Below, piece by piece: positions 1-57,900 of a stretch of DNA of 64,000 nt. This DNA comes from a virus. A program made the position numbers and the translations under genes. A model generated the notes under the pieces. It searched no databases. It was not told the origin of the DNA and saw only the letters and a list, made by a program, of their open reading frames with translations. Position 1 is the first letter of the stretch. Each line of letters starts with the position of its first letter. The stretch is from positions 17,299-81,298 of the IMG/VR virus record IMGVR_UViG_3300013212_000072. The stretch is one strand, 5' to 3'.

Positions 1-1812
1 AATTTAAAGACTGTTAAAGAATCTGTTTTTAATAATATTCCAAGCGGATGTGAAATTAATTGGCACTTAGTATTTGACACTAAAAATCTTAAAGATATTG
101 ATGCAGAATTACTATGTGATTTAAAAGATGATTCAACAACATATCATTTTGAAAAGGGAGACTCCATAGGAATGTTATATCCTCAATGTTCTGATATAAT
201 TTCAAAATTTGGAGAAGGTTGGGTTTATTTTTTAGATGATGACAATATTATTCATGAAGGTTTCTATGAATATGTTTTACAATCTTCATTAGAGAATCCA
301 GACAAAAAAGTTCATGTGGTTTCGCAGAATGTCGCAGGAAAGGATTTTACCAACTTAACATATAGAAAGGCAGCTCCTAAATATACAAAAGTACAGTGTA
401 TAGATTTAGCACAATATATCGTTAATACCGAAGTTTACAATAAATACGGATATAAATATTTACCTGACTATCGAGCAGATGGAATCCTTATAGGAACTAT
501 CCACGCAGAACATCCTGAGTGGTTTACATTTACTGAATTAACATTATCACACTACAACTATCTCCAGAAAAACGCAAAAGCAAAACTTCCTAAAGTATTA
601 TATATTGGTGATGATGAACCTGAATTAAAATCACTTAAAATACTAGATTACGAGGATGATAGTCTAGAGATTAAATACTTAAAGAATGATAATGATATTG
701 CAATATCATTAGCTTCATTTAAACCAGATGTTATTATAACCAGAGGGAAATCTTGGGAAGATTTCCCGGAAATGGCAAGCATGTCACTTCAATTTAGACG
801 AAAATGGTTAAATCTTGACAAAGAAATTTCTATTGGAGATGTTGGACAAACTGCGTATCAATGTTCAATGGAAAGTATGTTGAACCCAGATGGATTAGAA
901 GATAGTTCAATGATTTCATACTTTACCCCAATATACAATACTGGTGAAAAACTATTCAATACGTATCAATCCTTACTAGACCAAACATACGGTAATTGGG
1001 AATGGGTATTAGTAAATGATTCTTCCGATGGTGGAAAAACATTAAAAATAGCAGAATCTATTGCAGCAAAAGACCCAAGAGTACGTCTTTATGATTTTAG
1101 AGAAAAAAGCGGTGGAAATATTGGTGAGGTTAAATGGAGATGCTGTGTAATGGCTAAAGGTTTTATTTTAGCTGAATTAGACCATGATGATTTATTAGTT
1201 CCATGGTGTACTGAAGATCTTTATAAAGCAGCTAAAAAACACCCAGAAGCCGGATTCTTTTTTAATGATACCGTTGAAGTTGATGAGAACTGGAATTCTT
1301 TAACCTATCCAGAAGGATTTGCGCTCGGATACGGATCATATAGAAAAGAAGAGTATGCTGGACAGATAATGAATGTTTCTAATCAACAGAATATTAATCC
1401 AAAAACAATTAGACATATAGTTGGCGTACCAAATCATGTAAGAGCATGGAGACGATCTACATATTTTGAAGTCGGAGGACATAATAGAAGTCTTGTAATA
1501 GCCGACGATTATGAGTTGGTTGTGAGAACGTTCTTAAAAGCAATAACTTGTAAAATACCAAAATTAGGATACGTTCAATTCTTATACAATAATGCGAATG
1601 GACAAAACACGCACAATTTATCTAGAGCAGATATCCAAAGGCGTGTAAGAACAATAAGTTATTATTATAACGAACAGATTAAAAATAGATTTGAAGAATT
1701 AGGATTAAAAGATTGGGCGCATGAAGAATGTCCATGGGCTCCTTTAAATACTGTCTCAAGATTTGGTCAAGAAGAGATGGCAGCAAATATAATATACAAC
1801 GAAAATGAATAA
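1..1812 (+). CDS. Two-domain family 2 glycosyltransferase, 5' end cut by window
   Basis: The reading frame is open from base 1, so the true start lies upstream. Two GT-A (GT2-like) regions are visible. The first has a YFLDDDNII metal-binding motif about 80 residues in. The second, in the C-terminal half, has the classic start SYFTPIYNTGEKLF, then LVNDSSDGG and ELDHDDLL, the usual DxD-type sites for a nucleotide sugar. It probably transfers a sugar to phage DNA, a virion protein or a host surface glycan; the acceptor cannot be read from sequence. The stop overlaps the next start by 8 bases, suggesting co-transcription. The glycosyltransferase call is strong; the biological role is open. Confidence 0.85.
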   Translation, partial: NLKTVKESVFNNIPSGCEINWHLVFDTKNLKDIDAELLCDLKDDSTTYHFEKGDSIGMLYPQCSDIISKFGEGWVYFLDDDNIIHEGFYEYVLQSSLENPDKKVHVVSQNVAGKDFTNLTYRKAAPKYTKVQCIDLAQYIVNTEVYNKYGYKYLPDYRADGILIGTIHAEHPEWFTFTELTLSHYNYLQKNAKAKLPKVLYIGDDEPELKSLKILDYEDDSLEIKYLKNDNDIAISLASFKPDVIITRGKSWEDFPEMASMSLQFRRKWLNLDKEISIGDVGQTAYQCSMESMLNPDGLEDSSMISYFTPIYNTGEKLFNTYQSLLDQTYGNWEWVLVNDSSDGGKTLKIAESIAAKDPRVRLYDFREKSGGNIGEVKWRCCVMAKGFILAELDHDDLLVPWCTEDLYKAAKKHPEAGFFFNDTVEVDENWNSLTYPEGFALGYGSYRKEEYAGQIMNVSNQQNINPKTIRHIVGVPNHVRAWRRSTYFEVGGHNRSLVIADDYELVVRTFLKAITCKIPKLGYVQFLYNNANGQNTHNLSRADIQRRVRTISYYYNEQIKNRFEELGLKDWAHEECPWAPLNTVSRFGQEEMAANIIYNENE

Positions 1813-2023
1813 TACTTACGTAAAAATATGGGTTCATAATAGAGAATCTGACTTAATGATGGATTTCTTATTAGATAGAGTTGCTGAGCCTCCTCACTAT
1901 ATAATTGACTATAAAGAAGTACCCAAATCCATTACAGGTGGATGGATCGAAATGACAATATCTTATGATAGGTACCTTAAACTTCGGCAGTCTCATGACC
2001 ATGTAGATACTACGCATCTTTAA
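1805..2023 (+). CDS. Small hypothetical protein (72 aa)
   Basis: I do not recognise this protein. Its start overlaps the glycosyltransferase stop, which suggests translational coupling. It has a mixed composition with no membrane segment and no cysteines. The only notable feature is a histidine-rich end (HDHVDTTHL). It is followed by a 31-base gap before the next small gene. The call rests on tight packing and same-strand context. Confidence 0.6.
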   Translation: MNNTYVKIWVHNRESDLMMDFLLDRVAEPPHYIIDYKEVPKSITGGWIEMTISYDRYLKLRQSHDHVDTTHL

Positions 2024-2054
2024 ACTTTTTTATTTTCTTGTGTATAATTAGTAT

Positions 2055-2303
2055 ATGGCAAAAAATATAAAAGAACCCAAAGTATATGTGGTTAAACCAA
2101 AGGTTGGAGAAAACTATTATTTTAAATTTGCGGGGAGTATTATGCATGGTGAATTAGTTTCCTTAAACGAAGCACTAACTAAATTGCATGGAATTCCACA
2201 CTATTGGATGAATGAAAAGTCAGACAGAAGTGTAAAAAAATGCGTATACCCAATATCGATTTATAAGATTTTTAAAGATTTAAACGACTCAAGATATGTA
2301 TAA
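2055..2303 (+). CDS. Small basic hypothetical protein (82 aa)
   Basis: This is a lysine-rich, soluble-looking protein with no family I can name. The start follows a TATAATTAGTAT stretch. Its stop overlaps the start of the exonuclease gene by 8 bases (ATGTATAA), so the two are probably co-translated. A small accessory or host-takeover role is only a guess from the neighbourhood. Confidence 0.6.
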   Translation: MAKNIKEPKVYVVKPKVGENYYFKFAGSIMHGELVSLNEALTKLHGIPHYWMNEKSDRSVKKCVYPISIYKIFKDLNDSRYV

Positions 2304-3027
2304 CACTAGCGAATTAAAGTCAATGTTATTTATTGACATTGAAACCTCTTCAGAATACCCAAATTACGAAGAATTTTGTATTAAAAGGCCAGGCGCCATA
2401 AAGCATTGGGCTAAAAAAGCAGAACAGCACAGAAATACTGAATCGCATTTAGTAAAACTTACCGATGCAGAAATGTATACTCACATGTCGGCACTTAGTC
2501 CAGAATTTAGTAAGGTTATTGTAATTTCTATGGGACAAATTAAATTCCAAGATGGTATTACAACCTCAAAAATTCGTTCTTTCTATAAGGGTAGTGAAAC
2601 GGAAATTCTTAAAGAGTTTATGGGTACTGCTCAAGCTGTTTTTAATCAAAGTCCTTCAGTTCAATTTACTGGACATAATATTAAAAACTTTGATTTTCCA
2701 TATCTAATAAAAAGATCCATTGTAAATGGAGTAGCTATACCTCATCAATTTCATTTACAAAAGAAAAAACCTTGGGAAAACTGTCTTGTAGATACTTATG
2801 AAATTTGGAAATTTGCAGGTTGGAATAGCGCATCATTAGATTTAATTTGTGACACTCTTAATATTCCATCTCCTAAAACTATAATGGAGGCAAGTAGTAC
2901 TACTGAAGAATATTGGAATGGTAATATTGAAAAAATAAAAACGTACTGCGAAGGAGATGTTAAAGCAACAATGAATGTGATGCTTAAAATATCAGGGATG
3001 GATATGGTTGATGAGGTACCATTTTAA
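2296..3027 (+). CDS. DnaQ/PolB-type 3'-5' exonuclease (DEDDy)
   Basis: The protein (243 aa) has the RNase H-fold exonuclease motifs in order. Motif I is LFIDIETSS with D14 and E16. Motif II is GHNIKNFDFPYL, with an Asp. Motif III is YCEGDVKAT, a YxxxD pattern that places it in the DEDDy class. The family removes nucleotides from the 3' end of DNA using two metal ions. No polymerase domain is attached, so it is a stand-alone proofreading or repair nuclease, or it degrades host DNA. A promoter and a new transcription unit follow it. The motif assignment is firm; the substrate is unknown. Confidence 0.85.
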   Translation: MYNTSELKSMLFIDIETSSEYPNYEEFCIKRPGAIKHWAKKAEQHRNTESHLVKLTDAEMYTHMSALSPEFSKVIVISMGQIKFQDGITTSKIRSFYKGSETEILKEFMGTAQAVFNQSPSVQFTGHNIKNFDFPYLIKRSIVNGVAIPHQFHLQKKKPWENCLVDTYEIWKFAGWNSASLDLICDTLNIPSPKTIMEASSTTEEYWNGNIEKIKTYCEGDVKATMNVMLKISGMDMVDEVPF

Positions 3028-3070
3028 ATTGTTAATAACTTTTTGATAAAAAGTTTTACCGTGTCAAGAA

Positions 3071-3099
3071 TTTGTATTATATTTACATATCAAATTAAA
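3071..3099 (+). promoter_or_regulatory. Host-like promoter, copy 1 of 3
   Basis: It carries the core TTATATTTACATAT followed by AATTAAAAC. This is shared almost exactly with sites near 8800 and 25110 and lies just upstream of a start codon in all three. The core resembles the -7 element (TAnnTTTG) of Bacteroidota promoters, with A in place of the last G. The 14 bases after the upstream stop (ATTGTTAATAACTT) also recur before the 25.1 kb copy. No experimental support. Confidence 0.55.
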
Positions 3100-3110
3100 A
3101 CCTTATAATC

Positions 3111-3404
3111 ATGGACGAAGACTTTAACAATTTATTTGAAGAACAAGAAAACGAAATCGACACTATTAAAAAAGAAGCCGAAATGAATAACGTAATGTAT
3201 GATTTGAAAATCAAACTTGCAAATGAAAATTATGAATCAATAATTTCTAAAGGGGTTGATTTTAAATTAATGGAAAAACAAGAAATCGATATTAGACCCA
3301 TTGTTAAAATACTGGGAGATATGTTAGAACTTTTTGAAGAACGCGAAGAGTACGAAAAATGCGCAAAAATAAATAAGATACTTAAGAAAGCAAAGGTCCT
3401 ATAG
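3111..3404 (+). CDS. Small acidic protein with UVR-like C-terminal motif, paralogue 1
   Basis: This 97-residue helical protein ends in EEREEYEKCAKINKILKK. The same tail pattern (E-E/D-Y-E-K-C-x-x-L/I-K-K) occurs in the proteins at 4486 and 4835, so the three form a family. The pattern resembles the UVR motif (EFEKAAELRDKI) of UvrB, UvrC and bacterial arginine-kinase activators, a helical hairpin for protein contacts. It follows the first host-like promoter, suggesting early expression. The stop codon lies inside the terminator palindrome. Function unknown. Confidence 0.7.
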   Translation: MDEDFNNLFEEQENEIDTIKKEAEMNNVMYDLKIKLANENYESIISKGVDFKLMEKQEIDIRPIVKILGDMLELFEEREEYEKCAKINKILKKAKVL

Positions 3405-3420
3405 GACCTTTTTTTTTTAA
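3392..3420 (+). terminator. Intrinsic terminator
   Basis: A perfect 20-base palindrome (3392-3411) is followed by a run of ten T residues. The stem includes the stop codon of the preceding gene, so termination and translation end are fused. A TATATAAT box begins directly after it at 3421. Confidence 0.85.
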
Positions 3421-3449
3421 TATATAATGTACTAATAAAGTATATCGAT

Positions 3450-3659
3450 ATGAACGAAGAATTATTAAAAAAGATTGCAGATAGTCTGGAAAGAATTGCA
3501 ATTTGCATGGAAAACAAACAGCTAAGAGAAATTGCGACTTATAGAAAAGGTCAAGCTTCATTAATTGCCGAGAAAAAAGAAGCTAGCAAGAATCAGGTAA
3601 AATCTGCTCCGATTCCTATAGTAAAGCAGACGGTTAGAGTTAGAAATTCTAAAAAATAA
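3450..3659 (+). CDS. Small hypothetical protein, helical with basic tail (69 aa)
   Basis: An amphipathic N-terminal helix (ELLKKIADSLERIAICME) resembles a short coiled coil. The C-terminal third is lysine/arginine-rich, ending in VRVRNSKK, and could bind nucleic acid. It sits between a TATATAAT box (3421-3428) and dnaJ, only 6 bases before the dnaJ start. Not recognised as any family. Confidence 0.6.
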   Translation: MNEELLKKIADSLERIAICMENKQLREIATYRKGQASLIAEKKEASKNQVKSAPIPIVKQTVRVRNSKK

Positions 3660-3665
3660 ACTCTA

Positions 3666-4493
3666 ATGAATTATTACGAAACTCTTAATGTTTCAAAGAA
3701 TGCTACTCCTGAAGAGATTAAAAAATCTTATAGGAAACTTGTAAAAGAGCATCACCCTGACAAAACAGGGGGAGACGACACACAATTCAAAAAAATATCT
3801 GAAGCATACGAAACTCTTTCTGACTCTGTCAAAAAAGAGCAGTATGATAATCCATCTAGAGGACATAATCCTTTTAACAATTTCCATGGATATCAAGATA
3901 CATCAAATCCATTTGCGCACGCCTTTCGAGGATTTGGTGGAGATTTTGCTGATATGTTTAATCAATCGTTTGGCGGAGAAGCAAGAGGATCTGACGTTAG
4001 AGTTATGCTCAACATAACTCTTGAAGAATCTTATGATGGTTCGAGAAAATATATTGATGTTGGTACTGGTGGATTTAATATCAATATACCTCGAGGAATT
4101 TTGAATGGAACAAAACTTAAAATTCCAGGTAAAGGAGCTAACCATCCTGTAAATTCATCTGCACCTCCAGGCGATATTATTCTAATTGTCAATGTTTTAC
4201 CAGACCCTGAACTTATTGTTAACGGTAGTGATATTTATGTTGATTTAAACTTAAGTTGGATTGACATCTTGCTTGGAGGAGAATTTGAAATTCGTACCAA
4301 ACTAAAGTCTATTAAAATAAAAGTTCCTCAAGGTTCTCATGAGTCACAATTGCTGCGAGTAGTTGGGCAAGGAATGCCAATATATAATTCAGAAGGATTC
4401 GGAAATCTTATGGTAAAATTAAGAACTCTTCCTATAACTTTAACCGAACCCGAAATAGAATTACTTAAAAAGATAAAAAATCAAAATGAGTAG
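3666..4493 (+). CDS. DnaJ-like co-chaperone (class B, no zinc domain)
   Basis: Residues 1-62 are a J domain with the HPD motif at residues 30-32, the site that stimulates ATP hydrolysis by DnaK/Hsp70. A glycine/phenylalanine-rich linker (about 65-105) follows, then two DnaJ C-terminal beta-sandwich repeats (from about 110). There is no CxxCxGxG zinc cluster, so the layout is CbpA-like. The protein (275 aa) would recruit host DnaK, probably for virion folding or takeover. It overlaps the next gene by 8 bases. Confidence 0.93.
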   Translation: MNYYETLNVSKNATPEEIKKSYRKLVKEHHPDKTGGDDTQFKKISEAYETLSDSVKKEQYDNPSRGHNPFNNFHGYQDTSNPFAHAFRGFGGDFADMFNQSFGGEARGSDVRVMLNITLEESYDGSRKYIDVGTGGFNINIPRGILNGTKLKIPGKGANHPVNSSAPPGDIILIVNVLPDPELIVNGSDIYVDLNLSWIDILLGGEFEIRTKLKSIKIKVPQGSHESQLLRVVGQGMPIYNSEGFGNLMVKLRTLPITLTEPEIELLKKIKNQNE

Positions 4494-4740
4494 CATTGAA
4501 GAAAGCCCGGAAGAATCAAGAAAATTTATAAAAAAACTACACGAAGCATCCAAAGAAGATATGATGGATGTTATGTACTCTTCTATTGTCAATGGTAAAA
4601 TGGGAGCATTAAAGCACGATGGAACCATTGAAGAAAAAATAGAAGGAGTAAAAACGGTTCTTAATTTCTTTAAAGATAAAGAAGATTATGAAAAATGTAA
4701 AGAACTCAAAAAAATAATCGAAAAGTTGTCAATAATATAA
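4486..4740 (+). CDS. Small protein with UVR-like C-terminal motif, paralogue 2
   Basis: This 84-residue acidic helical protein ends in KDKEDYEKCKELKKIIEK, matching the tails of the proteins at 3111 and 4835. The N-terminal half is not obviously alike in the three. It overlaps the end of dnaJ, so it is probably co-translated with it. Function is unknown; a role in binding a shared partner through the UVR-like hairpin is inference. Confidence 0.7.
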   Translation: MSSIEESPEESRKFIKKLHEASKEDMMDVMYSSIVNGKMGALKHDGTIEEKIEGVKTVLNFFKDKEDYEKCKELKKIIEKLSII

Positions 4741-4743
4741 TAT

Positions 4744-4834
4744 AGTAACCTTTTTAGCCCGGTTATATTAAAAGTGCTTAGCTAAAAATATATATTATAT
4801 GTGGCTATAGCCACTTTAAAAACATTAAGGCAAG
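4744..4834 (+). promoter_or_regulatory. Structured leader with palindrome
   Basis: This 94-base gap holds a short hairpin (TAACC 4746-4750 with GGTTA 4761-4765) and a perfect 14-base palindrome GTGGCTATAGCCAC at 4801-4814. An outer pairing of AAAGTG (4771-4776) with CACTTT (4812-4817) is an alternative to the palindrome. An AT-only stretch at 4785-4800 lies between the arms and could hold a promoter. Start codon at 4835. Confidence 0.4.
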
Positions 4835-5092
4835 ATGGGAGATATTACAGGGGAGGAAAGAGATTCTCTGATGAGGTCCAGCTACTATATACTTACTAGA
4901 AATTTTACTAAAACCATTAATAGATTTGTTGTTTATAATGATGGTAATCACACAATCGATATTCCACATGGAATCGGACAGCGAAGCAAATTCGTAGATG
5001 TCCTAATAGAATATTTCGTTGAGTTAGAGGAATATGAAAAATGCGATTCGCTCAAGAAATTAAAAGAACTAGTCATAATGACTGGTGATTAA
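4835..5092 (+). CDS. Small protein with UVR-like C-terminal motif, paralogue 3
   Basis: This 85-residue protein carries VELEEYEKCDSLKKLKEL, the third example of the shared tail. Unlike the other two it starts with its own structured leader rather than overlapping a gene. AAGG five bases before the ATG is one of the few plausible ribosome-binding sites in the window. Function unknown. Confidence 0.7.
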   Translation: MGDITGEERDSLMRSSYYILTRNFTKTINRFVVYNDGNHTIDIPHGIGQRSKFVDVLIEYFVELEEYEKCDSLKKLKELVIMTGD

Positions 5093-5108
5093 ATATATAC
5101 AAATTTGT

Positions 5109-5858
5109 ATGCAAAAAAGAACAGTGGAAAGTAAATCAAAAACAACTAAAGCAAAACCCACAACTACTAAAAATCCAATTGGACGTCCTAAAAAAACAGT
5201 AGTAAAAGAATTAGATTTAGTAGGAGTACAATTAAAGCCGTCTCAATATGATTATTTTGAAAAAATTAAAAAAAATGAAATAACATTCTGTTCTGGTCCT
5301 GCTGGAACTTCAAAAACATTTACGGCATGTTATACTTCCCTATGGTTGCTAGCAACAAAAGGAGTTTCAAAAATTATTTTATGTAAACCAATTCAAGAAT
5401 CCGGAGAAAAACTTGGATTCCTACCTGGAGATATTGCAGACAAGGTTGACCCTTACATGCAATCATATATTTCAAATTTTAAAAAAATAGTAGGTGATGA
5501 ATTAACCGAAGGTTTAATTGCTTCAGGTGCTATTGAATTTAAGCCACTTGCATTTATGAGGGGTGATACATTTGATGATGCGTTTATGATTCTAGATGAA
5601 GCGCAAAATGCTCCATGGAATGCTCTTATACTATTTATTACTAGAATGGGTAAAAATTCTAAAGTACTAGTATCTGGAGATATAAGTCAGTATGATATTG
5701 CAAAAGATAAGGTAACATTTCATAAATTCATAGAAATGTATAAACCAGTACATGGTGTTGGAGTTCATGAGTTTGGGATTAAAGACATTGTGCGTGCAAA
5801 AATATTACAAGAAATTGTAAGCATTTATGATAAATGGAAATCCGATAATAATCTTTAA
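5109..5858 (+). CDS. phoH: PhoH-like P-loop ATPase
   Basis: The PhoH/RecD-like ATPase core shows Walker A GPAGTSKT, Walker B FMILDEAQNAP and the VSGDISQYDI sensor region. I chose the ATG at 5109; a GTG at 5085 in the same frame would add eight residues and overlap the previous gene. PhoH-like proteins are common in T4-like and other large phages and are predicted RNA-related ATPases; their exact function is unsettled. The gene ends with a normal helix (IVRAKILQEIVSIYDKW). A second, diverged copy of that 3' end lies beyond the following endonuclease gene, so this C-terminus may have been brought in with the insertion. Confidence 0.92.
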   Translation: MQKRTVESKSKTTKAKPTTTKNPIGRPKKTVVKELDLVGVQLKPSQYDYFEKIKKNEITFCSGPAGTSKTFTACYTSLWLLATKGVSKIILCKPIQESGEKLGFLPGDIADKVDPYMQSYISNFKKIVGDELTEGLIASGAIEFKPLAFMRGDTFDDAFMILDEAQNAPWNALILFITRMGKNSKVLVSGDISQYDIAKDKVTFHKFIEMYKPVHGVGVHEFGIKDIVRAKILQEIVSIYDKWKSDNNL

Positions 5859-5867
5859 TACATAAAT

Positions 5868-5980
5868 AAAGTTGCGTATGAGATGTTGATTTTGTAGTTA
5901 TTTTCATGAAATTTTCATATGCAACTTTTTTATAATTTTTTGGTGATATATAATCTAACTACAAATATATTATCAACATC
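5868..5980 (+). promoter_or_regulatory. Nested terminator/pseudoknot leader of homing endonuclease 1
   Basis: Stem A pairs 5868-5881 with 5915-5928 (14 bp, one G-T pair) and is followed by a T run, as in a terminator. Its loop contains 5882-5900, which is complementary to 5956-5965 plus 5972-5980 (stem B, 19 pairs with a 6-base bulge). Stem B's 3' arm ends at the base before the endonuclease ATG. A GATATATAAT box at 5945-5954 lies between, so transcripts starting there lack the 5' arms. Two other endonuclease leaders (7629 and 56802) have the same topology. Confidence 0.7.
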
Positions 5981-6775
5981 ATGAAAAACTACAAATATTA
6001 TTATGTTTATAGAATAACTAATACTTTACATAATAAACATTACTACGGCTACAGATCTTCTAATACCTCACCTTTATTAGATATTGGTATTAAATATTTT
6101 TCTTCGAGCAGAGATAAAGATTTTATAAAAGACCAAATTGAAAATCCAAATAATTATAAATATGTTGTTGTTAGGGTTTTCGAAAATAGGGAAGATGCAC
6201 ATAATTTAGAAATAGAACTGCATGCAAAATTCAATGTAGGTATTAATCCATCATTTTATAATAGAGCAAAAGCAACTAGTTCTAGATTTTCAATAACTGG
6301 AACTTCTCTATCAGATGAAACCAAAAAAAGAATGTCAATATCACATAAAGGCAGGATTGTTTCTCAAGAAACTAGAGATAAAATATCGAATGCTAACAAA
6401 GGAAAAAAGCATACGGATAAATTTAAAGATAAAATTAGAAATCGAGCGCAAGGAAATTCATATCATAAAAATAAAAAGCATACTGAAGATTCAAAGGTTA
6501 AGATGAGCAATTCACTTAAAGGAAAGAAAGCATGGAATAAAGGTATAAAGACTCCGGATGAAGTTAAAGCAAAACAATCATTAGCTAAATTAAATATGAC
6601 TCAAGAGCAAAAAGATAAAATGCATTCTTGGAAAAAAGGTCGACCATTATCTGAAGAAACTAAGAAAAAATTATCAAAACCTCAAACAAAGGTAGAATGT
6701 CTATATTGTAATAAAATTGGAGGTATTTCTGCAATGAAACAATATCATTTCGATAATTGCAAACAAAAAATATGA
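5981..6775 (+). CDS. GIY-YIG homing endonuclease with NUMOD3 repeats
   Basis: The N-terminal 95 residues are a GIY-YIG nuclease (YYYVYRITN ... HYYGYRSS; catalytic Glu in LEIELHAKFN). The centre has several NUMOD3-type DNA-binding repeats of the form SxETKxKxSxxxKGK. The C-terminus is a C2HC zinc motif (CLYC ... YHFDNC), also found in the endonucleases at 7750 and 56896. Such proteins cut a specific site and spread their own gene. It sits between phoH and a duplicated phoH 3' end. Its stop codon lies inside the first codons of that fragment. Confidence 0.92.
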   Translation: MKNYKYYYVYRITNTLHNKHYYGYRSSNTSPLLDIGIKYFSSSRDKDFIKDQIENPNNYKYVVVRVFENREDAHNLEIELHAKFNVGINPSFYNRAKATSSRFSITGTSLSDETKKRMSISHKGRIVSQETRDKISNANKGKKHTDKFKDKIRNRAQGNSYHKNKKHTEDSKVKMSNSLKGKKAWNKGIKTPDEVKAKQSLAKLNMTQEQKDKMHSWKKGRPLSEETKKKLSKPQTKVECLYCNKIGGISAMKQYHFDNCKQKI

Positions 6776-6941
6776 TATACCAAAAGCAAGTGCAGGTCTT
6801 CCAGGATTCATGCAGCTAATGAAGGGAATTAAAGGAACAGGAGAACATGTTTTTGAGAATAAAGATATTGTAAGAGCTAAAATACTTCAAGATGTTGTAG
6901 ACAGATACGACAAATGGAGAGTTGAAAATCCTGAAAAATAA
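6771..6941 (+). pseudogene. phoH: Displaced 3' fragment of phoH
   Basis: Translating from base 6771 gives 56 residues starting YDIPKASAG and continuing through KDIVRAKILQDVVDRYDKW to a stop at 6939-6941. This matches the intact phoH C-terminus (YDIAK ... KDIVRAKILQEIVSIYDKW) closely at both ends, with a different middle. It has no start codon and begins at TATGATAT, also present in phoH at the homologous codons (Tyr-Asp-Ile). It is best read as the original phoH 3' end, cut off when the endonuclease cassette supplied a new one. Confidence 0.85.
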
Positions 6942-6955
6942 GAAACTATCTGGAA

Positions 6956-6991
6956 TCCATCTATATAATACGTATAAAACATATAGATGGA
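6956..6991 (+). promoter_or_regulatory. Hairpin enclosing a promoter box and the rnhB start codon
   Basis: An 11-bp perfect stem pairs 6956-6966 with 6981-6991. The rnhB ATG (6987-6989) is inside the 3' arm. A TATATAATA box begins in the 5' arm at 6962. A transcript read through from upstream would hide the start codon; one starting in the loop would not. Regulation is inferred by analogy with T4 late-gene hairpins. Confidence 0.6.
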
Positions 6992-7619
6992 AACCAGACA
7001 AATACTACTTAAGCACTCCTACACAGGAGATGAATCAATTATAGAAATTGGTGTTGATGAGGCTGGCCGAGGTTCACTAAGTGGACCTGTTACGGTAGCC
7101 GCATGTATAATGCCATTTGGATTTGAAAACCCCCTGATCAAAGATTCAAAACTATTAAATGAGCAACAGCGAAAAGAGGCTCGTCGAATTATCGAGGAAA
7201 ACGCTATTGCATATCACATTGAACATATATCTCCCGAAGATATTGAGGCAACTAATATCTTAAAAGCAACCTTAATTGGAATGCAACGATGTTTAGAAGG
7301 TGTAAAGAATAATGCATTATTTGACTTTATATTAGTTGATGGCGACCAATTCCACGGATTTGAAGGAATTCCTTTTGAAACAGTAGTTGGAGGAGACAAT
7401 AAATATATTTCAATTGCTGCTGCAAGTATTCTAGCCAAAACCGAACGGGATTCAGTTATGAAAGATTTGGATATTGAGATTCCCGGATATGGCTGGAATT
7501 CAAATAAAGGGTATGGCACCGCGGCACATTTAATTGCAATTAAAGAATTAGGCCCAAGTAAGTATCATAGAATGAGTTTTATATCGCATTTGTTAACATC
7601 AACTAATTCTTTATTTTAA
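6987..7619 (+). CDS. rnhB: Ribonuclease HII
   Basis: This 210-residue protein of normal family length has the RNase HII signature GVDEAGRGSLSGPV (D24, E25), then LVDGDQ and AKTERD, supplying the acidic metal-binding residues. A GYGTAAH segment follows, typical of type 2 enzymes. It cleaves the RNA strand of RNA-DNA hybrids, for example primers, in the cytoplasm. T4 uses an unrelated RNase H for primer removal, so this may be its replacement. Its start lies in a hairpin, and a terminator with a long loop follows. Confidence 0.93.
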   Translation: METRQILLKHSYTGDESIIEIGVDEAGRGSLSGPVTVAACIMPFGFENPLIKDSKLLNEQQRKEARRIIEENAIAYHIEHISPEDIEATNILKATLIGMQRCLEGVKNNALFDFILVDGDQFHGFEGIPFETVVGGDNKYISIAAASILAKTERDSVMKDLDIEIPGYGWNSNKGYGTAAHLIAIKELGPSKYHRMSFISHLLTSTNSLF

Positions 7620-7628
7620 AATATTTTT

Positions 7629-7749
7629 AAAGGGTCTCTACTTATACATATATTTTGTTTGTCGTTATTCTAAAATAGTTTGTCTAGAGGCCCTTTTTTC
7701 TTATGATGTGAGATATATAATATAACGACAAACAAAAATATTATATTAA
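7629..7749 (+). promoter_or_regulatory. Nested terminator/pseudoknot leader of homing endonuclease 2
   Basis: Stem A pairs 7629-7640 with 7685-7696 (12 bp, one G-T) and runs into a T tract, giving a terminator for rnhB. Its 44-base loop contains 7653-7668, perfectly complementary over 16 bp to 7722-7737 (stem B), just upstream of the endonuclease ATG at 7750. A GATATATAAT box lies at 7712-7721. The nesting order (A, B, A', box, B', ATG) is the same as at 5868-5980. Confidence 0.7.
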
Positions 7750-8392
7750 ATGTACATCTACAAGACAACAAACAACAAACAACATCAACAACAAAATTTA
7801 TATTGGACTATCTACTAGATTAGTAGAAGAGTCGAAAGATTACTTTGGTTCCGGATTAAAATTAAATAAAGCTATTCAAAAATATGGCAAAGAAAATTTT
7901 ACTAAAGAAATAATAGAAAGTGGTATAGCAAATAAAGAGTTATTAAATGCTCGAGAAGTGTATTGGATATCCTATTACAATTCGACTGATAAATATGTTG
8001 GATATAATATTTCAAATGGAGGTACTGGAGGAGATATGATAACTAATAATCCTAATAAAAATAAAATTTTAGAAAAAATATCTATTGCGGTAAAAAAATC
8101 ATGGAATGATGACCGTAAAGAACATTATAAAAAATTATGGGAAGGTTCTAACAATCCTAATTATGGTAAAGAATTCTCAGAGGAACACAGAAAAAAGATT
8201 AGAGAAGGTGGGATTGGAAATACTAATGCAGCAGTACCTTGCTCAAACGAAAAGAAAAATAAGATTAGTAAAAAATTAAAAGGAATTAAACAGATTGTGG
8301 TTGAATGTCCACATTGTAAGTTAACCGGAGGAAACCCTATAATGAGAAGATACCATTTTGATAATTGCAAGCAAATAAAAAATAAAAAATGA
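7750..8392 (+). pseudogene. GIY-YIG homing endonuclease, frameshifted by a 7-base duplication
   Basis: The start reads MYIYKTTNN, then goes out of frame and stops at TAG near 7816. The frame resumes as KIYIGLSTRLVEESKDYFG and runs to 8392. The break is a tandem duplication of AAACAAC (7770-7776 and 7777-7783); removing one copy restores MYIYKTTNNINNKIYIG, a textbook GIY-YIG start. The rest has the catalytic region (NAREVYWISYYN), one NUMOD3-like repeat and the same C2HC zinc end (CPHC ... YHFDNC) as its paralogues. It overlaps the next gene by 4 bases. A sequencing error in a simple repeat is the main alternative to decay. Confidence 0.85.
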
Positions 8393-8733
8393 GATCGTTA
8401 ATTTATGGTATTCTATTGTTCCTATTTGGACAATCGTTTATATGGTTCCAAACAAACGGACAGTTTATGTGGCCATGGTTTAAAAAGAATCCACTCCTAG
8501 TTGCAATAATTGGAGGGTCTACAATATCATACGTTTTTATAGAGGCAACCAGAATGATTGCAGAATATTATGACGGACAATTATGGCCTGGAAGATTTAT
8601 TGGATTTTCAATGGGCATGATTTCATTCTCTATATTAACATATTACATAATGAATGAGCCACTAAACGCAAAGACCATAATCTGTTTGATACTTTCATTA
8701 GCCCTAATCTGTGTCCAAATATTTTGGAAATAA
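8389..8733 (+). CDS. Small multi-pass membrane protein, DMT/EamA-like
   Basis: Four hydrophobic segments cover most of the 114 residues (about 4-20, 30-50, 65-85 and 93-112), with short polar loops and a motif NGQFMWPWFKKNP between the first two. The layout resembles half of a drug/metabolite transporter or a small multidrug resistance-type protein. It would lie in the host inner membrane. No substrate can be inferred. It ends 30 bases before a terminator and overlaps the broken endonuclease by 4 bases. Confidence 0.7.
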   Translation: MRSLIYGILLFLFGQSFIWFQTNGQFMWPWFKKNPLLVAIIGGSTISYVFIEATRMIAEYYDGQLWPGRFIGFSMGMISFSILTYYIMNEPLNAKTIICLILSLALICVQIFWK

Positions 8734-8762
8734 CATTAACAAAAAATTAACATAATTTTAAC

Positions 8763-8791
8763 AACCCAGATTTTCGGATCTGGGTTTTTTT
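8763..8791 (+). terminator. Intrinsic terminator, near-identical to the one at 25069
   Basis: Arms AACCCAGAT (8763-8771) and ATCTGGGTT (8778-8786) with a 6-base loop are followed by T residues. The same hairpin, with one loop change, occurs at 25069-25097, also directly before a host-like promoter. Confidence 0.92.
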
Positions 8792-8819
8792 GATTATATT
8801 TACATATCTAATTAAAACA
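8791..8819 (+). promoter_or_regulatory. Host-like promoter, copy 2 of 3
   Basis: The core TTATATTTACATAT plus AATTAAAAC starts within 2 bases of the terminator T run and precedes the ATG at 8830. It matches the sites at 3071 and 25097 in sequence and spacing. Confidence 0.55.
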
Positions 8820-8829
8820 AAGAAATATT

Positions 8830-9090
8830 ATGAGTTACACAAGATTTGATAGACAAGAAAACATGGTTGCAGAAACTAGAACTGAAATTATGGGAATCAT
8901 TAGAGAAATTGGAGACAATGATTACTCTAGAAACCTAGAAAATATGATGTATGGTTTATTTGATGGATATTTATACGCTGAAATTCAAATTGAAGCCCTT
9001 CAATTACCTACCGAACTGGCTTCAAAAGTTATGAGAATCTTCGATATCTGTAACCGTTATCCTAAATACGAACCTCAAACAAATTATTAA
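8830..9090 (+). CDS. Small hypothetical protein (86 aa)
   Basis: First gene after a terminator/promoter cassette, hence likely expressed from a host-like promoter early in infection. It is soluble-looking and helical, with an acidic N-terminal half and a tail rich in Tyr and Pro (YPKYEPQTNY). Not recognised. Confidence 0.65.
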   Translation: MSYTRFDRQENMVAETRTEIMGIIREIGDNDYSRNLENMMYGLFDGYLYAEIQIEALQLPTELASKVMRIFDICNRYPKYEPQTNY

Positions 9091-9091
9091 G

Positions 9092-9223
9092 ATGAAAACT
9101 TTTAAAAAAAGATTTGATTTTCTTTGGATTCCGAGTTATCCGGGAATGTTAACTTTAATGTGGATGTGCATATTATTTGCAATTGCAGAAATTATAACTA
9201 TAGTATTAATATTGATAAATTAA
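9092..9223 (+). CDS. Very small single-pass membrane protein (43 aa)
   Basis: ATG at 9092, one base after the previous stop. A basic N-terminus (MKTFKKRFDFLW) is followed by one hydrophobic segment of about 25 residues ending in LILIN. The positive-inside rule predicts the N-terminus in the cytoplasm. It fills a gap that would otherwise hold no gene. Function unknown; small inner-membrane proteins of this kind are common among early phage genes. Confidence 0.55.
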   Translation: MKTFKKRFDFLWIPSYPGMLTLMWMCILFAIAEIITIVLILIN

Positions 9224-25998: not shown

Positions 25999-26047
25999 AT
26001 GAGTTTGGGTTTTATTCTTAGATATATAGAATAAAACCCAAACTCAT
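25999..26047 (+). promoter_or_regulatory. Perfect 20-bp hairpin covering the start of homing endonuclease 4
   Basis: Bases 25999-26018 pair perfectly with 26028-26047 around a 9-base loop, TAGATATAT. The ATG is 26046-26048, so its first two bases are in the 3' arm. Such a stem should block initiation on any transcript carrying both arms. The GATATATA core in the loop could start a transcript that lacks the 5' arm. Confidence 0.75.
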
Positions 26048-26735
26048 GTTTCATTATGTTTATATTGTAAAACATCCGCAAACTGGTGAATTTTACTATG
26101 GAAGTAGAACTAGTTATGTTTTGCCAGAATTAGATGATTATAAAGGCTCGATGTGCAAATGGAAAGTTAATAAATTTGAATTAATTAAAACAATAGTTAA
26201 GACATTTAATTCCAGAGAAGAAGCATATTTATTTGAAAGAGAAATAATATTAAAAAATATAAGACATTCATTAAATAGAAATTATGCAATTCCATCAAAA
26301 CACGGTGCCGGCGCACTACCTGGTCCAAAAAATTCTTTTTTTGGTAAAAAACACACCGATGAATCTTTAATTAAAATGAAAGAAAACTCAAATAATGCAG
26401 GCGTTAATAATCCAATGTTTGGAAAAGAGCATAAAGATGTATCTAAAAAGAAAATGTCTATTAAAAAAATAGGCCTTTACAATGGCGTAAATAATCCGAT
26501 GTCTAAAAAACTATATCAATATGATATAAATGGAAATCTAATGAATATATGGGATTGTGCAACTCTATGCGTGAAACATTATGGTGATATTGGTATTAAT
26601 TTATCTAGAGGTAATATTTCCAATAGCGCAAAAAACAATTCAATTGAAGATACTTCGTTAAAAAGATTAAATGTATTTATCTTTTCATTTTCAGAGATAG
26701 ATATAGTTAGATTTAATAAATTTAAAAATAAGTAA
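26046..26735 (+). CDS. GIY-YIG homing endonuclease with NUMOD3 and NUMOD1 domains
   Basis: GIY-YIG core at residues 3-90 (HYVYIVKHPQTGEFYYGSR; Glu in YLFEREIIL). NUMOD3-type motifs follow (FGKKHTDESLIKMKEN, FGKEHKDVSKKKMSIKKIG). A C-terminal NUMOD1 helix-turn-helix-like part reads YQYDINGNLMNIWDCATLC. It lacks the C2HC zinc tail of the other three GIY-YIG genes, so it is a different subfamily. It sits between two intact genes with no duplicated gene end visible. Confidence 0.9.
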   Translation: MFHYVYIVKHPQTGEFYYGSRTSYVLPELDDYKGSMCKWKVNKFELIKTIVKTFNSREEAYLFEREIILKNIRHSLNRNYAIPSKHGAGALPGPKNSFFGKKHTDESLIKMKENSNNAGVNNPMFGKEHKDVSKKKMSIKKIGLYNGVNNPMSKKLYQYDINGNLMNIWDCATLCVKHYGDIGINLSRGNISNSAKNNSIEDTSLKRLNVFIFSFSEIDIVRFNKFKNK

Positions 26736-56151: not shown

Positions 56152-56799
56152 ATGAATTTTGTAACAATTGACTTTTCTTTAAATTCTCCAGGTATTTGCA
56201 TCTTCGCAGGAGGCAAGTACTATTTTATTGGGTATTTAAAACCAAACACAGGAACTAAAGCCGAGCAAAAGCTTCAAGAGGAACTAAATATTCTTGCAGA
56301 TACTCAGATTACCCATCAACCAGACTGGACGAATAACGAAGCCTATTCGAAAAGCGAAATGATTAAAATCCAGAGGCACACTCAAACTGCGAATGACATT
56401 ATTAATATGATTATTGAAATTGCAGGCGATGAATCCCACTTTGTGATTGCTTTTGAAGGTTCCTCTTATGGTTCTTCCAGTGGAACTAATAATATTATTG
56501 ATATGGCGGCTGGAGCTGCAATCTTAAAGATGGAATTAATGTCGAGGCTTAAAGTTCAAGATATGATGACCATCGCACCTTCGACAATTAAGAAGTTCAT
56601 ACATAAAGGAAATATGAATAAAAGAGAAATATGGCCGTACTTTTTAGATTTTAAAGAAAATATTAATATTCCTTTAATTAATTTTTGTAATCAAAATATA
56701 GGAAATGATATTAAAAGTATACCTAAGCCGTTAGATGATTTAGTTGACGCGTTTTTTATGTTAAAATATGTTCTATCTATTTATAATAAAGATATATAA
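56152..56799 (+). CDS. RuvC-like Holliday junction resolvase
   Basis: An RNase H-fold nuclease with TIDFSLNSPGICIF (first catalytic Asp), AFEGSSYGSSSGTNNIIDMA (Glu and a substrate loop) and KPLDDLVDAFFML (C-terminal Asp pair), the usual order of RuvC active-site acids. At 215 aa it is near RuvC length. T4 uses the unrelated endonuclease VII for branched DNA, so this may replace it for resolving recombination intermediates before packaging. It lies next to the gp32-UvsY-UvsW recombination genes. Confidence 0.75.
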   Translation: MNFVTIDFSLNSPGICIFAGGKYYFIGYLKPNTGTKAEQKLQEELNILADTQITHQPDWTNNEAYSKSEMIKIQRHTQTANDIINMIIEIAGDESHFVIAFEGSSYGSSSGTNNIIDMAAGAAILKMELMSRLKVQDMMTIAPSTIKKFIHKGNMNKREIWPYFLDFKENINIPLINFCNQNIGNDIKSIPKPLDDLVDAFFMLKYVLSIYNKDI

Positions 56800-56801
56800 A
56801 C

Positions 56802-56895
56802 AAAATGATGTAAGGACATCGGGTTCGAAACCGCTTTAGCAATTAGTCTGTTAAATTACTTACATTATTTTATAAAAAATAGACTAATTATTAAA
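56802..56895 (+). promoter_or_regulatory. Nested stem/pseudoknot leader of homing endonuclease 5
   Basis: Stem A pairs 56802-56814 with 56859-56871 (13 bp, one G-T), running into an AT-rich tract. Its 44-base loop contains 56841-56852, complementary to 56878-56889 (12 bp, one G-T), which ends six bases before the ATG at 56896. The loop also holds a small GC-containing hairpin (56820-56833, centre TTCGAA). This is the same A-B-A'-B'-ATG order as at 5868 and 7629. Confidence 0.65.
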
Positions 56896-57609
56896 ATGTA
56901 CCATTACATATACAGGGTACCCTCGTTGATTGAAAGTAAACATTACTATGGATTACGAAGTTCTAAAGTTGAACCTAAATTAGATTTAGGAATTAAATAC
57001 TTTACAAGTTCTACTGATTTAGAATTTAGAAATGATTTTATAAAAAATCCGCACAAATATAAATGTGTTATTGTTAGAAAATTTACATCTAGAAATGAAG
57101 CTGTGATATTTGAAATATTTTTACATAATAGATTTAATGTAAAGAACCATCCTTCTTTTTATAATAGATCAAATCAATCAGCAAAAGGATTTGATAGATC
57201 TGGAATTTTAACAAGTAAAGATACTAAAAAACTTATATCTAATTCTATAAAGGGTATTATTCGTTCCGAAGAAACTAAGAAAAAGATGTCAGAATCTAGA
57301 AAAGGATATATTATGCCAGTTTCTTCTAGAATAAAATTAAGTAACTCTAAAAAAGGCACTGCGCATTCCGAAGAAACTAAGAAAAAGATGTCTGATTCGA
57401 GTAAAGGTCAAATTATGTCTCCGGAAGCTAGAGATAAAATATCTAATGCTCTTTGTAATAAAGCAAAGACAAAAGAACATGCTCTTAATATCTCAAAATC
57501 TCTTATTGGTTTTAAATATAAAGAAAAAACCTGCGTACATTGTGGTCTTACCGGTAGAGGTGGGAACGTGTCTAGATTTCATTTTGATAATTGTAAAAAT
57601 AAGCAGTAA
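56896..57609 (+). CDS. GIY-YIG homing endonuclease, paralogue of the phoH-inserted one
   Basis: Very similar to the endonuclease at 5981: HYYGLRSSKVEPKLDLGIKY against HYYGYRSSNTSPLLDIGIKY, HPSFYNRS, and the same C2HC tail (CVHCGLTG ... FHFDNC). NUMOD3 repeats (SEETKKKMSESRKG) fill the middle. It lies between the RuvC-like gene and gp32, with no duplicated gene end found. Its target site may be near the gp32 leader. Confidence 0.9.
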   Translation: MYHYIYRVPSLIESKHYYGLRSSKVEPKLDLGIKYFTSSTDLEFRNDFIKNPHKYKCVIVRKFTSRNEAVIFEIFLHNRFNVKNHPSFYNRSNQSAKGFDRSGILTSKDTKKLISNSIKGIIRSEETKKKMSESRKGYIMPVSSRIKLSNSKKGTAHSEETKKKMSDSSKGQIMSPEARDKISNALCNKAKTKEHALNISKSLIGFKYKEKTCVHCGLTGRGGNVSRFHFDNCKNKQ

Positions 57610-57900
57610 GGCCTTAAAATTTTAAGAGCTTAAATCATTTAGCCCGGACTCTATTTTACCCGGAGGCTTAAAGACTTTAGTTATATTCAACCTGTAAGTT
57701 TTTGTTTCAAGAATCTTAAAAAATATTTTAAGAAGGTAACTTTATGCCTTCAGGGACAGGTTTCCCTAATAAAAAAGATATATAATTCATATAGATTCTT
57801 GAAACAAAAAAGAAAGTTTCTATATAAATATCATAAGTAATTAAAGGGCCCTTAAGACTTATTAAATTAAAGTTTAAACAAAATTAAAGCAATTAAAGAC
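57610..57900 (+). promoter_or_regulatory. Long structured leader of the gp32 gene
   Basis: This 291-base gap has no gene but strong structure. A palindrome CTTAAAATTTTAAG lies right after the endonuclease. A GC-richer hairpin at about 57635-57672 is closed by CCGG pairs. A perfect 18-bp stem (57699-57716 with 57793-57810) encloses a GATATATAAT box at 57777-57786 and two small hairpins. A third hairpin at 57833-57867 is centred on AAGGGCCCTT. T4 gp32 represses its own translation through a pseudoknot in its leader, so an operator here is plausible but unproven. Confidence 0.6.

Follow-up and report, generated by a model that had tools for sequence, protein, structure and literature searches.

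The phoH gene of this phage very probably owes its 3′ end to a mobile homing-endonuclease cassette, which would have brought in a foreign end and left the native one stranded downstream, in an event presumed to have involved cutting, coinfection and resistance. The window, i.e. the whole stretch of 64,000 nt that was analysed, belongs to a viral metagenome record of 81 kb that contains four NUMOD3 endonuclease genes, and a megablast search against known phages yielded no close relative among those deposited.

The phoH locus and its two 3′ ends

As noted in the preliminary description, phoH is complete upstream of an endonuclease gene (positions 5109-5858; PF02562, E = 6.6e-60; this and the following features of the locus lie on the + strand), and a second, diverged copy of its 3′ end, consisting of 56 codons in frame to a stop, follows the GIY-YIG gene at 6771-6941. 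The fragment, translated as YDIPKASAGL...KDIVRAKILQDVVDRYDKWRVENPEK up to the stop, is 47% identical to PhoH residues 193-247 (E = 5.7e-12, within the record), shares 102 of 168 nucleotides with the in-situ 3′ end, and lacks a start codon upstream of an internal ATG at 6810. The gene in between, HEG1 (5981-6775), matches the homing endonucleases of phrog_314 (E = 2.5e-31) and NUMOD3 (E = 1.1e-16). While its GIY-YIG domain scores below the Pfam cut-off, we consider it a probable GIY-YIG homing endonuclease because of the PHROGs and NUMOD3 matches and the visible motifs: YVYRITN...YYG and the R, E and N positions are invariant in four relatives. Its product shares 75-77% of amino acids with endonucleases found at the same place in contigs L003 and L024, and 60% with that of L043.

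A scan of viral contigs yielded 38 phoH relatives. Since several loci stem from a shared sample or from related ones, locus counts are not independent. In 34 of the 38, phoH is native and endonuclease-free, with a single 3′ end whose type is that of the stranded fragment, and in nearly all of these rnhB comes next. None of the 34 has two 3′ ends, the arrangement that had been named in advance as speaking against an insertion. The nearest sister, the endonuclease-free L015, has 98.8% nucleotide identity to the stranded fragment, whose protein is identical to that of L010. The in-situ 3′ end is instead common to L003 and L024, each with the same endonuclease in the corresponding position, and to L025 and L026, in which the foreign end stands without an endonuclease (3989-4700) and which probably represent a cured allele. 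Thus, among the 38 relatives, endonuclease and foreign end occur together in both carriers and the foreign end alone in two; with the window counted in, and the loci not being all independent, the association has a Fisher p of 0.001. L043 is an exception, its phoH end not being foreign in comparison with its own sisters. Searching more widely for the foreign end added no members to L003, L024, L025 and L026, bacterial genomes gave ordinary PhoH alone, at no more than 45% identity, and no donor of the window's end was found, the closest carrier being 78.5% identical in nucleotides.

Codon-aligned comparison places the left edge of the foreign tract at codon 168/169 (nt 5613), where identity to the nearest sister drops in all four backgrounds. 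Codons 1-168 (5109-5612) are 97-100% identical to L015 in most 20-codon windows, with a minimum of 93%, and group with it in the tree, and in codons 169-249 plus the stop (5613-5858) identity falls to 47-83%. In trees of the proteins, codons 1-168 of the four genes with foreign ends fall into different clades, a single clade being rejected (p-AU = 2.6e-18), while their last 81 codons, including those of L003, L024 and L025, form one clade outside the native one (support 100/100). The stranded fragment is nested within the endonuclease-free sister clade (96/91), and constraining the window C-terminus to that clade is rejected (p-AU = 4e-5). The phylogenetic check proposed at the outset thus bears out the claim that the in-situ end is foreign and the old 3′ end stranded: the downstream fragment groups with close relatives, the in-situ C-terminus groups with carriers of other backgrounds, and the opposite tree, with a native upstream C-terminus and an unrelated downstream fragment, was not obtained. 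The foreign end appears to be functional and in use, as carriers differ mostly synonymously (27 synonymous vs 3 other codons between L003 and L024). Between the window and L003, the phoH end, the spacer and the endonuclease have diverged alike (78.5, 74.6 and 77.8% identity), as would be expected if they travel together.

The two copies had also been said to start at the same point, TATGATAT. This holds for the native remnant, which resumes there, but not for the replaced tract, which begins 26 codons upstream of that motif (codon 195); therefore, the two copies mark different breakpoints. On the right side, sister sequence is back and continuous from 6769, and identity then stays at 95-100% across most of rnhB. 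In L003/L041, L024 and L043, the endonuclease frame continues into the final 6-9 native phoH codons, with tails reading ..LVDNPEK, ..KWRIDNPEK and ..KWKDKHNL, respectively, before the stop, and each short remnant resembles the local endonuclease-free sister together with its downstream spacer. The 57-codon remnant of the window, stop included, is unusual in comparison, so that right junctions must have formed at two or more places. We infer that the window junction keeps the right side of the break, or a point nearby, TATGATAT lying approximately at the break end, and that in the other carriers homology close to the stop codon served to resolve the right junctions. The exact junction between HEG1 and TATGATAT was found in no other viral contig. 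Overall, the locus exists in four states: uninvaded (34 loci), with a long remnant (the window), with a short remnant (L003, L024, L043), and with the foreign end alone (L025/L026).

Recurrence at other genes and in other phages

The phenomenon, initially described at phoH alone, is not confined to it: further cases are a RuvC-like gene, probably rnhB, and a gene of Vibrio phages. Judged by sequence comparison, the RuvC-like locus (56152-57671, + strand) is a full second case of the phoH-type anatomy. The native 5′ part of this resolvase gene (56152-56595; phrog_159, E = 4.4e-9) is 90-98% identical in nucleotides to the endonuclease-free L350, and identity drops to 44-67% in codons 149-215 plus the stop (56596-56799), which fall into a clade with L347-L349. 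Next comes HEG4 (56896-57609; GIY-YIG/NUMOD3, phrog_314, E = 4.8e-21), and then a stranded native end of 12 codons, HLARTLFYPEA and a stop (57636-57671), with the same peptide as in L350 and near-identical DNA; the alignment with the sister L324 picks up again at 57630, after HEG4. The RuvC-like C-termini form a clade with the HEG4 carriers L347-L349 (96/84), and the N-termini reject a single clade (p-AU = 7.5e-72). HEG4 is also carried by L359, L361 and L362, in which only about the last 15 codons are replaced; compared with the tract starting at codon 149, this indicates that the left boundary is variable and the right one constant. A more distant version of the foreign end occurs in the endonuclease-free L379. 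ARAGORN detected no tRNA-like feature in the gap between the RuvC-like gene and HEG4.

Immediately downstream of the stranded phoH end, rnhB (RNase HII; 6987-7619, + strand; PF01351, E = 1.2e-35) is probably a further instance of end replacement, to judge from its identity to L015, which is 95-100% in codons 1-168 and 68-80% in the last 40, the diverged stretch (codons ~171-210, 7497-7619) lying beside a second GIY-YIG/NUMOD3 endonuclease gene, GIY2 (7750-8392, + strand; phrog_314, E = 2.2e-29 for 7787-8389). GIY2 is apparently frameshifted near its 5′ end, around 7780; the relatives search returned no close relatives for it, and there is no clear native rnhB remnant beside it. The sequence past GIY2 (8390-9110) is also diverged from L015, and both flanks of 7497-9110 are at 94-100%. 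The remaining gene, HEG3 (26046-26735), is a clean insertion between genes without end replacement, so that end-swapping is not universal; on both sides of it, a short stretch matches sister sequence.

Two isolated Vibrio phages display related arrangements at a gp13-like neck gene. In phiKT1024, this gene matches phiTY18 in 686 of 693 nt up to codon 231, and its last 11-12 codons are recoded, sharing 22 of 36 bases (KFSDPAPIDIA vs KWADPAPIDVA, each before the stop); next comes an endonuclease whose frame closes with SDPAPIDVA and a stop, identical in 29 of 30 bases to the native pv27 end. SRILMA (VB_VaC_SRILMA) is the mirror image: the native first 37 gp13 codons (105/111 vs pv27) are fused to a GIY-YIG frame, which is followed by a complete gp13 with the first 37 codons diverged (73/111) and the rest 95% identical (585/618). 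This locus (L394, 1501-3191) was deposited as two head-tail adaptor genes.

We also searched endonuclease loci for repetition of the upstream gene's C-terminus after the endonuclease. In a shuffle test of 62 loci, which is blind to very short remnants, the window scored highest (z = 23), and only the window and phiKT1024 were flagged; a two-sided test of 25 loci (16 from isolates) returned only SRILMA and the window, the 9-codon remnant of phiKT1024 being too short for it. Among the 16 isolate loci examined, the pattern is seen only in phiKT1024 and SRILMA.

The endonuclease genes also share features of their leaders. A terminator-like hairpin follows phoH (5862-5933, + strand; fold z = -3.4 for 5859-6003), and its loop, TTTGTAGTTA, is predicted to pair, within the spacer 5862-5976, with TAACTACAAA in the HEG1 leader (5945-5980, + strand), which also contains the promoter-like GATATATAATCTAAC, a putative function suggested by the sequence; the exact motif also precedes GIY2. 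Counterpart pairs are present in L043 (TTTGTGGTTA/TAACCACAAA) and at GIY2 (TTTGTCGTTA/TAACGACAAA, 7629-7740), and one position shows compensatory change, with A-U, G-C and C-G in HEG1, L043 and GIY2. The HEG3 start codon lies within a perfect 18-bp stem with an AT-rich loop (26000-26735). When 57 ORFs were ranked by stems reaching the start region, the four endonuclease genes took ranks 1, 2, 3 and 7, the probability of all four being in the top seven by chance being 9e-5. The motif TATATAAT, a possible phage promoter element, has 27 sites in the window vs 15.6 expected, often upstream of genes. The endonuclease leader of phiKT1024 (L389, 1955-2010) contains a T4-late-promoter-like TATAAATA as part of a stem formed with the region of the start codon.

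Proposed mechanism and alternative explanations

The cassette would comprise the divergent phoH 3′ end (81 codons plus the stop), the intergenic regulatory stretch and the GIY-YIG/NUMOD3 gene. During coinfection of a cell by two phages, the endonuclease would cut phoH of the endonuclease-free phage near its 3′ end, and repair would copy the donor. The left end would find homology in the conserved middle of phoH, and conversion would therefore bring the donor 3′ end along, which, differing in sequence, would no longer match the cut site. The right end would usually rejoin through homology in the last few phoH codons, fusing 6-9 native codons to the endonuclease frame; in the window phage it appears to have joined at TATGATAT instead, leaving 57 codons. 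PhoH would stay whole because the cassette supplies its end. More generally, such GIY-YIG cassettes presumably land in essential genes together with a divergent, cut-proof copy of the end that they sever. We lean, by a small margin of confidence, towards the broader proposal that phages harbour recurrent natural home-and-rescue drives, in which GIY-YIG endonucleases settle close to one or the other end of essential genes, within them, and bring along a divergent version of the severed end that resists cutting, repeatedly reshuffle the ends of such genes between lineages, and leave foreign ends as scars after the endonuclease is lost.

A possible, if rather unlikely, alternative is ordinary intronless homing of the T4 type, in which a free-standing endonuclease cuts an adjacent gene and flanks are co-converted, the stranded fragment is a repair accident, and the foreign end has neither a rescuing nor a cut-proofing role. 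It has precedents in the T4 Seg endonucleases (PMC2988022), and the variation in left boundaries, from codon 149 of the RuvC-like gene to about the last 15 codons in L359, is as expected of co-conversion tracts. The position of the endonuclease genes argues against it: in several lineages and genes they lie within the coding region, at a distance of 6-14 codons from the native stop (57 in the window), with native remnants in each, and an insertion there that supplied no end would leave the gene truncated. The mirrored 5′ case in SRILMA is likewise difficult to accommodate.

Chimeric metagenome assembly is very improbable. The exact junction is indeed confined to the window record, but only about 10 bp are common to the two sequences that meet there, the foreign phoH end occurs with the endonuclease in the independent contigs L003 and L024, the ruvC cassette is present in several contigs, and isolate genomes show the same anatomy. 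We give still less credence to a self-splicing intron or bypassed spacer that would join codon ~194 to 6771 and make the in-situ 3′ end intronic. Both copies are open frames sharing TATGATAT, as such a reading would have it; however, the foreign tract already differs upstream of this motif, the remnant is just 6-9 codons in other carriers, and the foreign end changes mostly synonymously and stands alone in L025/L026. An Rfam search of 5000-8500 gave no group I or II intron match at E ≤ 5. An origin by tandem duplication of the 3′ end of phoH, with subsequent divergence and later insertion of an unrelated endonuclease, would explain two related copies at one locus, but has a negligible chance of being correct, since no native endonuclease-free relative has two copies, the downstream copy is 98.8% identical to sisters, and the in-situ copy comes from another lineage.

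Relation to known systems

A literature search, which missed most subscription papers, found no phage example described in these terms. Mobile ORFs with replacement C-termini are known from fungal mitochondria, in atp6 of Allomyces macrogynus and in atp6, atp9, cox2 and nad3 of Glomus sp. (PMC3630166). The likeness to Allomyces atp6 suggested initially is upheld in two respects: a divergent C-terminus, in frame, arrives with an endonuclease ORF and precedes it, and the displaced native end lies downstream and matches close relatives, at 91-98% of nucleotides in fungal mitochondria (PMC3630166) and 98.8% in the window. The present case differs from the fungal ORFs in its occurrence in tailed phages, in affecting at least two and probably three genes of a single genome, in having endonuclease-free alleles with foreign ends and remnants of variable length, and in extending to the 5′ end in a Vibrio phage.

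The second relevant system is T4, in which SegA-SegG and MobE are responsible for intronless homing and marker exclusion (PMC2988022). The window genes resemble them as free-standing GIY-YIG endonucleases with co-converted flanks, which are found at the phoH, ruvC and rnhB loci, and would likewise spread between co-infecting relatives. While the free-standing endonuclease genes of T4 sit between genes, HEG1 and HEG4 lie within the host coding sequence, close to its end, HEG1 in no recognisable intron, and the cassette restores the gene. Phage endonucleases within an essential gene also include those of T4 gene 60/mobA and Aeh1 nrdA/mobE, in which the gene is kept usable by splitting or bypass; in the window, by contrast, a replacement end is supplied. 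In T4 gene 60/mobA, the solution is bypassing (PMC3014915).

In T4 I-TevI and segB and in Aeh1 mobE, the endonuclease start is masked by a helix in read-through RNA, and the structure contains a promoter (PMC3014915). The leaders of the window endonucleases are similar and may exert comparable RNA control, except that for HEG1 and GIY2 the loop of the terminator-like hairpin behind the preceding gene is predicted to form the 5′ half. A further parallel is offered by the synthetic HomeR home-and-rescue drives, in which an essential gene is cut and then rescued by a recoded piece that is copied in (PMC7968924); those are engineered Cas9 drives in insects, whereas the window case is natural, protein-only and of phage origin, with a putative resistance.

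If the proposed reading is correct, bringing along the missing piece provides a route by which a free-standing endonuclease can enter an essential coding sequence without an intron or intein, forms a natural counterpart to recoded-rescue gene drives, and would explain mosaic ends of phage genes, including foreign ends with no remaining endonuclease. The isolated Vibrio phages phiKT1024 and SRILMA, together with pv27, phiTY18 and Va1, make the phenomenon amenable to crosses. It also joins two literatures, on fungal mitochondrial mobile ORFs and on T4 homing, and the closest known kind is, in our best reading of these comparisons, a mobile ORF of the Allomyces atp6 type combined with intronless homing of the T4 type.
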